NCBI RefSeq assembly: GCF_013342145.1
Contig: NZ_JABUQZ010000001.1
Coordinates: 4,092,001 to 4,156,000 of the forward strand
Reading direction: 5' to 3'
Length of the DNA stretch: 64,000 nt
Source: Haloterrigena gelatinilytica
GTDB taxonomy: Archaea > Halobacteriota > Halobacteria > Halobacteriales > Natrialbaceae
Part shown: positions 9,337 to 15,796 of the stretch, piece by piece
Layout: every line of letters starts with the position of its first letter
How positions within the stretch are numbered: position 1 is the stretch's first letter
Translations under genes and position numbers: made by a program
Notes under the pieces: model-generated
Told to the model about the DNA's origin: nothing
The model's input: the letters and a program-made list of their open reading frames with translations, nothing else
Databases searched by the model: none

Positions 9337-11001
9337 ATGGAAGACACGTCGAAATATCTCATCCACGCCGATGTTACGGCCGAGGGCGTCGTCGAGCGGA
9401 GCGACGTCGTCGGCGCGATCTTCGGTCAGACCGAAGGCCTGCTCGGCGACGAACTCGATCTCCGCGACCTCCGCCAATCGCAGAAAGTCGGACGCATCGA
9501 CGTCAGAAATCGTCAGCACGGGCGGCCAGTCTCAGGTCACCTCACCATCGCGACCAGCCTCGACAAGGTCAGAAACCGCGACGCTCGCCGCCGCCCTCAG
9601 ACACGTCGAAATATCTCATCCACGCCGATGTTACGGCCGAGGCGTCGTCAGCGGAGCGACGTCGTCGGCGCGATCTTCGGTCAGACCGAAGGCCTGCTCG
9701 GCGACGAACTCGATCTCCGCGACCTCCGCCAATCGCAGAAAGTCGGACGCATCGACGTCGAAATCGTCAGCACGGGCGGCCAGTCTCGGGGTCACCTCAC
9801 CATCGCGACCAGCCTCGACAAGGTCGAAACCGCGACGCTCGCCGCCGCCCTCGAGACGATCGATCGGGTCGGCCCCTGCCGGGCCGACCTCGAGGTAACC
9901 GAAATCGAGGACGTCCGCGCGGCCAAGCGAAAGGCGGTCGTCGACCGCGCGAAGGAACTGCTCCAGACGGGGTTCGACGACAGCGTGATGTCCTCCGAGG
10001 AGATCCTCGCGGAGGTCCGCCAGCACGTCCGCGTCGAGGACATCACCGAGTACGAAGGCCTCCCCGCCGGCCCCCGCGTGACCGACAGCGACGCGATCAT
10101 CGTCGTCGAGGGCCGTGCCGACGTCCTCACCCTCCTCAAGTACGGCGTCAAGAACGCCATCGCGGTCGAGGGAACCAACGTCCCCGACGCGGTGGCCGAA
10201 CTGACCCACCACCGCACGGTCACTGCCTTCCTCGACGGGGACCGGGGCGGCGACCTCATCCTCGAGGAACTCTCCCAGGTCGGCGACGTCGACTACGTCG
10301 CGTTCGCGCCGGCCGGCGAGTCCGTCGAGGATCTCGACCACCACCAGCTGTTCACCGCCCTGCGGAACAAGGTCCCCTACGAGACCGTCTCGGGGATGAA
10401 CGAGCCCCGCGAGGCCGTCGCCGCGACCGACGGCAGTTCGACCCCGGCCCCGGCGCCGACCGAGTCGGCGACCGACCGCGACGCCGACGACTCGTCGCAG
10501 GCGATCGACGGTCCCGCGACGTCGCCGCCCGAGACGGCGAGTCCATCGGCGCCGACGGGCGACGCGGACGGCGAGGATGAGACCGTCGACGACGGTGCCG
10601 TCCGCGACGTCTCAGACGCGTCGGCCTCGGTCGAGACCGGTTCCGACGCGGCCGCTGGGGACGATACCAGTGGCGCCGACGCCGAACCCGAGACCGTCTA
10701 CGGTCACGCGACGGCGATCGTCCGGCGGAACACCGGCCGCGTCCGCTTTCTCGACGCCGACGGCGACGCCGTCGACGAGGCCGACGCGAGCGAAGCCTAC
10801 GACACCCTCGAGGGACTCGAAACGGCGCCGGCAACGATCGTCCTCGACGAGATCCTCGACCAGCGACTGCTCGACCTCGCGGCGGACCGCGGCGTCGAGC
10901 GGATCGTCGCGCGCTCGCTGGGGCAGTTCACCAAGCGACCGACCGGCGTTCAGATCCACGCGATCGACGAGATCGCGGACGAACCGCCGAACACGGAGTA
11001 G
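9337..11001 (+). CDS. dnaG: Archaeal DnaG primase (Toprim), N-terminus duplicated
   Basis: Archaeal DnaG has a central Toprim domain (DAIIVVEGRADVLTLLKYG, EGTNVP, FLDGDRGGDLILEEL) and associates with the exosome and has primase activity in vitro. Here the reading frame is 554 residues because a 257-base segment at its 5' end is repeated in tandem. Copy one (9342-9598) carries four one-base indels relative to a normal sequence, copy two (9599-9853) two deletions. Residues roughly 54-106 are partly out of the native frame. Removing one copy and restoring the two bases gives exactly 470 codons (469 residues), a normal size. The C-terminal half after an acidic linker is intact. Either an assembly fault or a real, decaying duplication. 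Confidence 0.9.
   Translation: MEDTSKYLIHADVTAEGVVERSDVVGAIFGQTEGLLGDELDLRDLRQSQKVGRIDVRNRQHGRPVSGHLTIATSLDKVRNRDARRRPQTRRNISSTPMLRPRRRQRSDVVGAIFGQTEGLLGDELDLRDLRQSQKVGRIDVEIVSTGGQSRGHLTIATSLDKVETATLAAALETIDRVGPCRADLEVTEIEDVRAAKRKAVVDRAKELLQTGFDDSVMSSEEILAEVRQHVRVEDITEYEGLPAGPRVTDSDAIIVVEGRADVLTLLKYGVKNAIAVEGTNVPDAVAELTHHRTVTAFLDGDRGGDLILEELSQVGDVDYVAFAPAGESVEDLDHHQLFTALRNKVPYETVSGMNEPREAVAATDGSSTPAPAPTESATDRDADDSSQAIDGPATSPPETASPSAPTGDADGEDETVDDGAVRDVSDASASVETGSDAAAGDDTSGADAEPETVYGHATAIVRRNTGRVRFLDADGDAVDEADASEAYDTLEGLETAPATIVLDEILDQRLLDLAADRGVERIVARSLGQFTKRPTGVQIHAIDEIADEPPNTE
9342..9598 (+). repeat. Tandem duplication copy 1 within dnaG
   Basis: This 257-base unit begins at AGACACGTC and ends where the second copy begins at the same AGAC. 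Relative to copy 2 it has GTCAGAAA for GTCGAAA twice, CTCAGG for CTCGGGG, and CTCAG for CTCGAG at the junction. The 4-base AGAC identity marks the duplication joint. Confidence 0.9.
9599..9853 (+). repeat. Tandem duplication copy 2 within dnaG
   Basis: This is the second copy of the 5' dnaG segment. It lacks one G in the GAGGGC run and one G in GTCGAGCGG relative to copy 1; these two losses turn a frame-breaking 257-base repeat into a net 255-base, frame-preserving one. Confidence 0.9.
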
Positions 11002-11699: not shown

Positions 11700-13049
11700 T
11701 CAGCCGAGCACGGCAAACGACAGGACCAACAGTGCACAGACCAGCGCGCCCGAGAGCGTCGCGAGGAAGTTGACGCTCTGGTTGCCGAGCACCCGTCCCT
11801 CGAGGGTCGCGCCCAGCAGGCTGTCGACGGTCATGCCGACGACGCCGGCGGCGACGATGATCGCCGCGCCGACGGTCGTGACCGCGTCGAAGAGGCCGTA
11901 GGAGATGCCGGCGACGACAGCGGCGCCCGCGACGCCGGCGATCTCTCCCTGCCAGGTGACGCCGCCGTCGGTGCCGGGTTCGACGGGCTCTAAGGTGGTG
12001 ATCAGCCGCGGCGTCTCGAAGACGCTGCCGATCTCGCTCGAGAGGGTGTCGCTCATCGCCGTGGCGACGGAGCCGGCGAAGGCGAACAGAAACAGGCTCG
12101 GTTCCGGATCGCCGGGCAACAGCGTCGCCGAACTGGCCGCGTAGCCCAGGACGGCCCCGAGCGCGACGGCGGCGTTACCGAGGACGTTCCCGCTGCCACG
12201 GGCGCCGTTGTTGTCCTCGGCGACGCCGCGTTCGGCCTTCTCCTCGTAGCGGTACTTCGAGGAGAGGCCGCCGATGGCGAAAAAGGAGATGAGGACGGCG
12301 AACCAGCCGTAGCCGCCGAGGACGATCGTCAACAGCCCCAGTAGGATCCCGGTGAGCATCCCCGCGATCGAGGCCGTCTCGAGGGCGTAGGAGACGTAGC
12401 CGAAGGCGACGGTGATCGCGAGCGCGGCGACGATCTCGCTCCCGGTGAGGGCCAGCGCCGGCTCGAGCTCCGCGAGCAGCCAGCCGAGGAGGCCGACGGT
12501 GAGCATGACGACGGGATCGTCGTTCGCGAACAGGATGTCCCGGAGCAGCGACGCCAGCAACGCGCCGCTGGCTCCGAGGAAGAGCATCGTCGGCAGCGCC
12601 GGCGACAGCGACTCGAAGGCGGCGCCGTCGGCGATCGAGCGCGCCGCCGACTGGCCGACGACGGCGGCGACGGTCGCGACGACGCAGAAGGCCGCCGTGT
12701 GGACGACGTCGCGGTCGGTCCACTGGTGGGCGAGTTGCTCGGCGAGGTTCCCGTACCCGACCAGCAGAACGGTCCCGACGAAGACCGCGATCGACATCGA
12801 CGTCGTGACCGCGATGAGGCCGAGCGTGGTCCCCGCGAGCACGAGCGTGACGATGCCGTAGAGGCGCCCCGCCTCGTAGTCGCTCGGATAGGCCAGCAGT
12901 TCGAAGAGCGGCCCGTCGGTCACGGCGAGCGCCCCGAGGACCGCGACGGCGGCGATCGCGGCCCCGACCCGCGGGTTGCCGAGCGGAACGGCGAGTGCGA
13001 GCGTACAGAGGGCAGCAAACACGCCTGCTCGCCGAACAGGTGCTGTCAC
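11700..13049 (-). CDS. DUF92 family polytopic membrane protein
   Basis: A 449-residue membrane protein with roughly 12 helices. The C-terminal half has the DUF92/TIGR00297 pattern: GLSSKYRYEEKAERGVAEDN..GARG, GNVLGNAAVALG, AFAGSVATAMSDTLSSEIG, and GVVGMTVDSLLGATLE. This family includes the plant phytyl-phosphate kinase VTE6 and is distantly related to polyprenol kinases, so a role on an isoprenoid alcohol phosphate is plausible but unproven. Its location beside two cis-prenyltransferase homologues, which make polyprenyl carriers, supports this. The start is GTG at 13049; an inverted repeat GTTCAC/GTGAAC (13072-13093) lies upstream. Confidence 0.85.
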   Translation of the reverse strand: MTAPVRRAGVFAALCTLALAVPLGNPRVGAAIAAVAVLGALAVTDGPLFELLAYPSDYEAGRLYGIVTLVLAGTTLGLIAVTTSMSIAVFVGTVLLVGYGNLAEQLAHQWTDRDVVHTAAFCVVATVAAVVGQSAARSIADGAAFESLSPALPTMLFLGASGALLASLLRDILFANDDPVVMLTVGLLGWLLAELEPALALTGSEIVAALAITVAFGYVSYALETASIAGMLTGILLGLLTIVLGGYGWFAVLISFFAIGGLSSKYRYEEKAERGVAEDNNGARGSGNVLGNAAVALGAVLGYAASSATLLPGDPEPSLFLFAFAGSVATAMSDTLSSEIGSVFETPRLITTLEPVEPGTDGGVTWQGEIAGVAGAAVVAGISYGLFDAVTTVGAAIIVAAGVVGMTVDSLLGATLEGRVLGNQSVNFLATLSGALVCALLVLSFAVLG

Positions 13050-13232: not shown

Positions 13233-13865
13233 ATGGGGTCGGACGGGAAACTCACTGCCGTGGGTCTGTACGAACAGTATCTCAGCCTCCGCATCCGTCG
13301 CCACGACGGCGAGCTCCCCGACCACATCGCGCTCGTCATCACCGAGCGCGACCTCCTCGAGCGGGACGCTTACGGGACGCTGACGGACTTCTTCGCGTGG
13401 GCCTTCGAGTACGCCACCCAGCTGACCGTCTACGTCAGCGTCCTCGACGCCGCGGCGGTGCCGGCCCTGCGACGCGAGCTCGAGACCCTCGAGGCGCCCC
13501 GCGAAGTGGCCGTCCGCGGTCCCGACGATCGAACGCCGGCGGAAGCGCCCATTCGCATCGGAATCGGTCTGGGCGGGAAACACGAGTTCACCAGCGCGGT
13601 CCGGACGCTCGCGGAACACGTCGAGGACGGGCAACTGGCGCCCAAGGAGATCGACGACGAGCGGGTCGAGAATCACCTCGTTTTCCCCTCCGAGCCCGAC
13701 CTCGTGATCAAGACCGGCGCCGAGCGGCTCTCGGATTTCATGATCTGGCAGTCGGTCTACTCGGAGCTGTACTTCACGGACGTCAACTGGCGGGACTTCC
13801 GCAAGCGGGACTTCCTGCGGGCCGTCCGGGAATATTGTAACCGCTCGCGTCGGTTCGGCCGTTAA
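13233..13865 (+). CDS. Non-catalytic cis-prenyltransferase (UPP synthase family) subunit
   Basis: A 210-residue UPP-synthase fold protein. Where catalytic members have xxMDGNxRW, this has HIALVITERDLL (31-42), with no catalytic Asp and no GNxRW. The C-terminal substrate segment is well kept (DLVIKTGAERLSDFMIWQ, VYSELYFTDVNWRDF) and the chain ends in NRSRRFGR, giving the RxG motif (Arg207-Phe208-Gly209) that in dimeric cis-prenyltransferases completes the partner's active site. This is the pattern of a NgBR-like accessory subunit. The catalytic partner is probably the UppS at 14318-15274, which lacks RxG. Its stop overlaps that of the convergent regulator. Confidence 0.8.
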   Translation: MGSDGKLTAVGLYEQYLSLRIRRHDGELPDHIALVITERDLLERDAYGTLTDFFAWAFEYATQLTVYVSVLDAAAVPALRRELETLEAPREVAVRGPDDRTPAEAPIRIGIGLGGKHEFTSAVRTLAEHVEDGQLAPKEIDDERVENHLVFPSEPDLVIKTGAERLSDFMIWQSVYSELYFTDVNWRDFRKRDFLRAVREYCNRSRRFGR

Positions 13866-14221
13866 CGGCGCCGGTCGTCGCCGTCCGGCAGCGTTCCCAG
13901 CGGCTCCTCGAGCGCGACGACGGGGCCCGACAGATGGACGGTCTCGGACCGGATATCGTACTCGAGCAGCCCGTAGTCCTCGAGTTTCGGCAGCGTCGCG
14001 TGAACGAGCGTGATGCGGACCGCCGCCCGGGTTCGCTCGTCGTCGACCGCGGCGACGTCGGCCGCCAGTCGATCGAGCGAGACCGGCGGGTCACACCGCG
14101 ACAGCACCCGAAGCGCGATCCGCGTCCGCGAACTCCCGAGCAGGGTTGCAGCCGCCTCTATCGAGCAATTCGTCACTTGCGCGAGCCGCTCGATGTCGAC
14201 GACGCTGCCAGCTACTACCAT
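13862..14221 (-). CDS. DUF7344-type winged-helix protein
   Basis: A 119-residue protein of the haloarchaeal DUF7344 pattern: SRTRIALRVLSRCDPPVSLDRLA, VRITLVHATLPKLEDYGLLEYD and a terminal strand ETVHLSG. These are compact winged helices thought to be transcription regulators. The start at 14221 (MVVAGSVVDIE) is chosen because a TATA-like AATTTTA lies about 28 bases upstream; an ATG at 14242 would leave too little room. The gene sits between two cis-prenyltransferase homologues, converging on one and following the other, so it may regulate them. Confidence 0.7.
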   Translation of the reverse strand: MVVAGSVVDIERLAQVTNCSIEAAATLLGSSRTRIALRVLSRCDPPVSLDRLAADVAAVDDERTRAAVRITLVHATLPKLEDYGLLEYDIRSETVHLSGPVVALEEPLGTLPDGDDRRR

Positions 14222-14245
14222 GGTTATTATTTTTCCACACATATC

Positions 14246-14254
14246 GGTAAAATT
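14246..14254 (-). promoter_or_regulatory. TATA box for the 14221 regulator gene
   Basis: Read on the minus strand, AATTTTACC is centred about 28 bases before the ATG at 14221, which fits a leaderless transcript. Confidence 0.45.
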
Positions 14255-14317
14255 TTTGGGGTCGCGGCGGCTCCCTATTGCGACCGCGAGTGCGAGTGCG
14301 TCGGCGGTCGCAGCCGA

Positions 14318-15274
14318 TCAGTCGGCGGCCCGACTGCTCGAGTCGATGCCGTCGCCTTGTTCGTTTTGGATCGCGTCTAACTCCTCCGGATCGGGCTGTT
14401 CTGACGTGGGCAGCGAGTCGCGGAACCGCTCGACGACCGACTTCGCCTCCGCGAGTTCGGCGTCGCTGACGGCGCCCAGCAGGGCCAGCGCCCGCCGAGC
14501 GCGGTTCCGCCGCCAGGACTCGGCGCGGTGCTCGTAGGTCCGGATCCCCCGCAGGAAGTCCGTCTTGGAGAACTCCGGCCAGTAGGGCGTACAGAAGAAG
14601 ACGGCCGCTTCGTTGCCGTTGGCGTGCCACGGCAGGAAGTTCGAGGTCCGCTCCTCGCCGGCGGGTCGGATGATGAGGTCGACATCCCGGATCGGGCGGT
14701 CGTAAAGTCGACGTTCGATGTCCTCGACGTCGATTTCCGCCGGGTCGAGGTCGCCCCGCTCGACGTCCTCGGCGACCCCGCGGGCGGCCTCGAGCAGCCG
14801 CGACCGACCGCCGTACGCGAGCGCGATGTTGAGCACGAACCGGTCGTACTCCTGTGTGCGGCGTTCGGCGTATTCGATGGCGTGTTGCACCCGGTCGGGG
14901 AGCAGTTCCGTCTTCCCGATAGCGCGAATACAGACCTCGTTCTCGTGAACGCGATCGGCGTCCGCGAACTCGTGGAGTTTCTCGCAGATCAGGTCGAACA
15001 GCGCCTCGTTTTGCTCGTCGGGCCGATTGAAGTTCTCGGTCGAGAACGTGTACAGCGTCAGTTCCTCGACGCCGATGTCCTGACACCACTCGAGGACCCG
15101 TTCGGTCGTCTTCGCACCTTCGCGGTGGCCGTCGGGAGCGTCGTCGCCGTTACTGCGGGCGTACCGTCGGTTCCCGTCTTGAATCACCGCGACGTGGGTC
15201 GGTGCGCCGGAAATCTCTCGCGAGAGCAACCGCTCGTAGGCAGCGTCGACGCGTTCACGGAGCCACCGCTTCAT
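14318..15274 (-). CDS. uppS: Polyprenyl (undecaprenyl-type) diphosphate synthase, catalytic subunit
   Basis: A 318-residue cis-prenyltransferase that condenses isopentenyl diphosphate units onto an allylic primer to make the dolichol-type lipid carrier. It has the catalytic motif HVAVIQDGNRRYA (Asp33), the TLYTFSTENFNRP segment, NIALAYGGR, and the diphosphate-binding RPAGEERTSNF followed by NEAAVFF and PYWPEF. After IRTYEHRAESWRRN there is no RxG motif; instead an acidic tail of about 70 residues follows. Because dimeric enzymes need that RxG from one subunit, it likely pairs with the RxG-bearing, Asp-less homologue at 13233. Start ATG at 15274. Confidence 0.9.
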   Translation of the reverse strand: MKRWLRERVDAAYERLLSREISGAPTHVAVIQDGNRRYARSNGDDAPDGHREGAKTTERVLEWCQDIGVEELTLYTFSTENFNRPDEQNEALFDLICEKLHEFADADRVHENEVCIRAIGKTELLPDRVQHAIEYAERRTQEYDRFVLNIALAYGGRSRLLEAARGVAEDVERGDLDPAEIDVEDIERRLYDRPIRDVDLIIRPAGEERTSNFLPWHANGNEAAVFFCTPYWPEFSKTDFLRGIRTYEHRAESWRRNRARRALALLGAVSDAELAEAKSVVERFRDSLPTSEQPDPEELDAIQNEQGDGIDSSSRAAD

Positions 15275-15391: not shown

Positions 15392-15796
15392 ATGGCAGAC
15401 GCGATCGACGACGACCTCTACCAGCGGACCAAGGCACTGCTCGAGCCCGGCGAGATCGATCTCAACGGGGCGATCGTCCACACCGACTACGACGGCCAGG
15501 AGGACGTCCAGATGATGCAGGCGACCCTCGACGTCGGCGACGTCATCGCCGAGCGTTCGGGGTACGATCCCGAGGACTGCTACGTCTACTCGGGCAACGA
15601 CGACCCCGACTTCTCCTCGAACCAGCACCAGGGGCTGACGCTGGACGACGAGGAGTTCGTCTGGGAGTGCCAGCAACTGCTGCGCGAGGGCAGCTTCGAC
15701 ATCGTCGTCTACTACCGGGCGACGGCGGACCACGAGGGGATCCTCGAGGACATCCGCGAGCTCGGTCACGAGGTCACCGGCGTTCGGGGCGACTGA
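15392..15796 (+). CDS. DUF5778 family protein
   Basis: A 134-residue soluble acidic protein. The body (DLYQRTKALLEPGEIDLNG, VQMMQATLDVGDVIAE, SGNDDPDFSSNQHQGLTLDD, EFVWECQQLLREGSFDIVVYY) matches a conserved haloarchaeal family that I recall as DUF5778. No signal peptide or membrane segment. Function unknown; it precedes the tetrapyrrole genes by 90 bases and could be cotranscribed, but a separate TATA-like CTTATG near 15857 suggests otherwise. Confidence 0.75.
   Translation: MADAIDDDLYQRTKALLEPGEIDLNGAIVHTDYDGQEDVQMMQATLDVGDVIAERSGYDPEDCYVYSGNDDPDFSSNQHQGLTLDDEEFVWECQQLLREGSFDIVVYYRATADHEGILEDIRELGHEVTGVRGD

Follow-up and report, generated by a model that had tools for sequence, protein, structure and literature searches.

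We identified two neighbouring genes in Haloterrigena gelatinilytica that very probably encode the two subunits of one heteromeric cis-prenyltransferase (cis-PT), based on their motifs, co-occurrence, phylogeny, gene order, and predicted folds. Both genes lie in the window, by which we mean the whole 64,000-nucleotide stretch of DNA that was analysed (Table 1); the small protein is referred to here as S, and the larger, UppS-type protein as U. U covers nearly the whole PF01255 profile (profile positions 1-216, E = 2.9e-66), and S matches its C-terminal half only (116-219, E = 2.2e-26). A profile search of the window genome found exactly two PF01255 genes, S and U, and they are its sole recognisable cis-PT. 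A preliminary description of this sequence had credited the UppS with the catalytic Asp33 and no C-terminal RxG motif, and its 210-residue homologue with an RxG-bearing RRFGR end and neither the catalytic Asp nor GNxRW; both proteins are indeed as described: a motif scan found no RxG in the C-terminal region of the window U, and no GNxR in the window S, whose C-terminus is RRFGR. The heteromeric enzyme proposed there gains support from the complementary loss of motifs, from the grouping of each subunit in a single clade, and from the tail-to-tail linkage of the genes.

Table 1. Coordinates of the S and U genes, their motifs, and neighbouring genes in the window.
Feature	Position	Strand	Remarks
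S, predicted non-catalytic small cis-PT subunit, NgBR-like in role	13233..13865	+	210 aa, PF01255
U (UppS), predicted catalytic cis-PT subunit, DHDDS-like	14318..15274	-	318 aa, PF01255
Catalytic P-loop of U, D33-G-N-R-R37	15164..15178	-	no variation among 61 haloarchaeal U or among 45 U phylum-wide
RxG motif of S, R207-F208-G209	13851..13859	+	predicted to reach the U active site in trans
Conserved C-terminal cis-PT core of S, residues 160-186, KTGAERLSDFMIWQSVYSELYFTDVNW	13710..13790	+	
Predicted isopentenyl diphosphate site of U, residues 203-213, RPAGEERTSNF (R203, R209, S211)	14636..14668	-	
C-terminal extension of U replacing the RxG tail, residues 251-318	14321..14524	-	
DUF7344 HTH-type protein between S and U	13862..14242	-	PF24035, E = 2e-12
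DUF92 membrane protein (arCOG02245), next to S and divergent from it	11700..13049	-	PF01940, E = 3.3e-58

DGNR is present in 61 of 61 haloarchaeal U and an RxG at the canonical place in none of them (0/61), and the haloarchaeal S all end in RR[FY]G plus one residue (40/40); since the pattern is common to these 61 U and 40 S, that seen in the window is not due to chance. Across the phylum, all intact U contain DGNRR and have no in-register RxG, and all intact S lack DGN and have an R-x-G end (K-x-G in two); a DGN P-loop and an in-register RxG were never found in one chain, be it U or S. In one species (L098), U has a stray, out-of-register RFG near its end, which is absent from the sister species. 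Among 57 S of the phylum, residues W172, Q173, Y176, E178, R204, R206, and G209 are invariant, and R207 is conserved in at least 90%; residues 160-186 are largely invariant in 33 haloarchaeal S. Among 45 U of the phylum, D33-R37, R203, R209, S211, N212, and F213 are invariant, and the equivalents of R203, R209, and S211 in human DHDDS are R205, R211, and S213 (PMC7573591). Across the phylum, the number of residues that follow position 250 of U varies between 4 and 68, so the RxG is missing with or without a tail extension. In genus g30 (L124, L125, and L128), the S match is interrupted near query residues 94-101, giving two separate pieces, which suggests an insertion within S. In family f11 (L187, L189, and L192), S is very divergent (a tree branch of 1.76 for two of them) and has kept its RxG end.

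Our Halobacteria sample comprised 391 genomes from 86 genera, searched with PF01255 and then with S itself; assemblies with a completeness of 90% or more and a contamination of 5% or less were counted as good (n = 377). At least two PF01255 matches were found in 388/391 genomes, and the search with S found a clear orthologue in nearly all Halobacteria, weak cases being inspected one by one. Genomes with just one of the partners had been named beforehand as a finding that would refute the heteromeric reading; except for a few drafts, the pair is kept together, both S and U being present in 388/391 Halobacteria and in 376/377 good assemblies. The sole good assembly without one partner (G072, in 120 contigs) has a single PF01255 match, of the S type; a draft that is 88% complete (G381) has a single match, of the U type, and an 82% complete assembly (G389) has none. 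In G236, S is interrupted by contig ends; in G218, G286, G382, and G021, S is divergent, and is still DGN-less and RxG-ended. Outside the Halobacteria, in the same phylum, at least two PF01255 genes are found in 113/114 genomes, and S was identified in 41/41 genomes searched for it; one draft (G494) has S only. Some genomes contain surplus copies, usually an extra U without an extra S. In G195 the second copy is a complete S and U pair, arranged in tandem on one strand of a separate contig (L084, 4785-6902); the duplication there thus kept the pair together.

S is short, its catalytic residues are missing, and it has frame breaks in a few genomes (the drafts G184 and G385), as would be expected of a decaying paralogue, a pseudogene in progress. 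We consider this reading extremely improbable: the invariant residues of the 57 S cluster in the core and at the very C-terminal end, S forms one ancient clade that is present in the sampled families, and the broken copies are confined to drafts. In a maximum-likelihood tree (quick method), 48 S form one clade with a support of 98, 45 U form another with a support of 95, and the third copies found in some genomes, which resemble MM_0014 of Methanosarcina mazei, form a clade of their own with a support of 100.

A heteromeric cis-PT made of distantly homologous subunits, both required for activity, has reportedly been described from Archaeoglobus fulgidus (Af1219/Af0707). In M. mazei, MM_0618 and MM_1083 form a heteromeric cis-PT with C45-50 products (Emi et al., 2019, as cited in PMC8131916), and MM_0014 is a separate, RxG-less cis-PT with a TLGG end, a functional homodimer that was crystallised as a dimer (PMC8131916). 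A Methanosarcina-type genome (G480) contains three PF01255 genes, namely one U, one S, and one orthologue of MM_0014 (E = 2.7e-126); since the third gene is MM_0014, elimination leaves MM_0618 and MM_1083 as the equivalents of U and S. U and S are thus the apparent counterparts of the M. mazei pair, an assignment made from the tree and by elimination rather than from the M. mazei sequences themselves. As far as the cited account of MM_0618/MM_1083 goes, the likeness is close: the two pairs belong to the same phylum, and each has one catalytic-type and one RxG-type subunit. The gene arrangement differs, the U and S genes being unlinked in Methanosarcina-type genomes and tail-to-tail neighbours in the window.

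MM_0014 also shows that the absence of RxG alone is no proof of heteromery, since it is RxG-less yet a homodimer (PMC8131916). Like U, MM_0014-type cis-PTs are archaeal, RxG-less members of PF01255, and U could be an ordinary homodimeric cis-PT that tolerates the loss of RxG in the same way, with S as a modulator or in an unrelated role; U has kept all the other catalytic residues, and some genomes have an extra U without an extra S. But the MM_0014-like proteins group in a separate clade and have a specific TLGG end, whereas U is placed elsewhere in the tree and lacks TLGG, its ends being variable and without a replacement motif. Moreover, S is kept practically everywhere and always with the RxG end, and work cited in PMC8131916 reported the Methanosarcina counterparts as heteromeric. 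A homodimeric U therefore seems improbable to us, and we strongly prefer the heteromeric enzyme.

The predicted structures agree with a division of labour between the two proteins. The U model (pLDDT 88.4) has human DHDDS, in its heterotetramer with NgBR, as its best PDB match (6z1n_A, E = 1.9e-23), with an alignment of about 300 columns that includes C-terminal helices; the C-terminal extension of the U model has helices at residues 237-285 and 296-307. The S model (pLDDT 86.8) has a cis-PT fold, with TM scores of about 0.6-0.68 to solved enzymes; from the secondary structure lists, its P-loop helix is missing and its tunnel-forming helices are shortened. The IPP-site-like motif of S (K160, R165, and S167) is invariant in haloarchaea, and S might accordingly be a separate enzyme or binding protein whose cis-PT core acts on another diphosphate substrate, independently of U. 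This is very unlikely, as the P-loop and the substrate-tunnel helices are gone from S, and S co-occurs with U in practically all genomes.

Similar to U and S, the human DHDDS/NgBR (NUS1) heterotetramer combines an RxG-less catalytic chain with an inactive chain that carries a C-terminal RxG; in the human complex, the tail of NgBR reaches across the interface, where its RxG contributes to the DHDDS active site, and DHDDS without NgBR keeps a certain activity as a homodimer (PMC7573591). The heteromeric enzyme proposed in the preliminary description is further supported by the DHDDS-like U model and by the apparent orthology to the M. mazei heteromer, as reported in the cited account. NgBR has an N-terminal membrane anchor, whereas S has none: no hydrophobic or transmembrane segment was found in 57 S (N-terminal KD19 maximum of 1.39). 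A profile comparison of S gave E = 2.8e-36 for bacterial UPPS vs. 3.3e-13 for NUS1, the latter aligned over nearly its whole length; a common origin of S and NgBR is not supported, given the far better score of bacterial UPPS and the missing membrane anchor. The bacterial homodimeric UPPS (TIGR00055) has the fold and catalytic residues of U and the RRFG end of S; the bacterial enzyme thus has both halves of the active site in one chain, whereas in the haloarchaeal pair they are split over two.

In the mechanism that we propose, U would provide the working active site, with Asp33 and the P-loop arginines binding Mg2+ and the allylic diphosphate, and R203, R209, and S211 binding isopentenyl diphosphate. 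S, of the same fold and having lost the P-loop and the substrate-tunnel helices, would pair with U via the canonical cis-PT interface, and its RRFGR tail would cross this interface and complete the RxG-less active site of U; the human structure is the source for this role of the tail (PMC7573591). We infer that the two proteins form a complex and that activity depends on S. The insertion of the S tail in trans is likewise predicted, and the product is probably a polyprenyl diphosphate, which would serve as the precursor of dolichyl phosphate, the glycan carrier in N-glycosylation. Our literature search found no assay of a haloarchaeal S/U pair.

Among 60 haloarchaeal loci, S and U are linked in 40, where they are no more than about 5 kb apart (median gap, 470 bases), and in 39 of these 40 they are tail-to-tail; in about a third of the haloarchaeal loci they are unlinked. 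The tail-to-tail arrangement also occurs in distant families (e.g., G392, G402, G405, G425, G431, G440, G446, and G461). An operon-type organisation was rejected, since S and U are convergent. The genes had been described as close and arranged around a small regulator: the closeness holds, but the HTH gene is not part of the system, as homologues of it occur in just 5 of the 60 haloarchaeal loci. The DUF92 gene is divergent from S in all linked haloarchaeal loci (36/36). The neighbourhood of uppS has been reported before, with a kinase-type step of isoprenoid synthesis suggested (PMC5898192; the UppS of Haloferax volcanii is HVO_2318 there), and the DUF92 protein is plausibly a kinase step in the same lipid pathway as S and U.

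Two further features of the window were noted. A DUF5778 gene (15392-15796) adjoins UppS and points away from it, and many haloarchaeal loci have it next to UppS. In addition, there is a tandem duplication of ~255 bases at 9342-9825, inside the ORF at 9337-11001, in the early part of a DnaG-like gene; its copies are 97-100% identical piecewise, with small indels, and five congeneric genomes match the second copy only, so the duplication is recent or an assembly artefact.

Dolichyl phosphate is the glycan carrier of haloarchaeal N-glycosylation, and our literature search on haloarchaea and cis-prenyltransferase found no paper that assigns the haloarchaeal dolichyl phosphate cis-prenyltransferase as a two-subunit enzyme. 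The S/U pair names both genes, and it leads us to expect that UppS, having no RxG, would seem incomplete when expressed by itself. A split cis-PT is a known kind of enzyme (M. mazei and human), here extended to haloarchaea and found to be very widespread in the phylum. On balance we favour, with some reservation, a single origin of the split enzyme, independent of DHDDS/NgBR and older than the radiation of the phylum (haloarchaea, Methanosarcina, and related methanogens), after which essentially all descendants retained it as their main or only cis-PT; in the same proposal, S may also have a part in setting product length or in coupling synthesis to the DUF92 kinase-like protein. The pair shows the split architecture to be the rule across the whole phylum, and its anchor-free subunits could serve as convenient models of the medically relevant DHDDS/NgBR.
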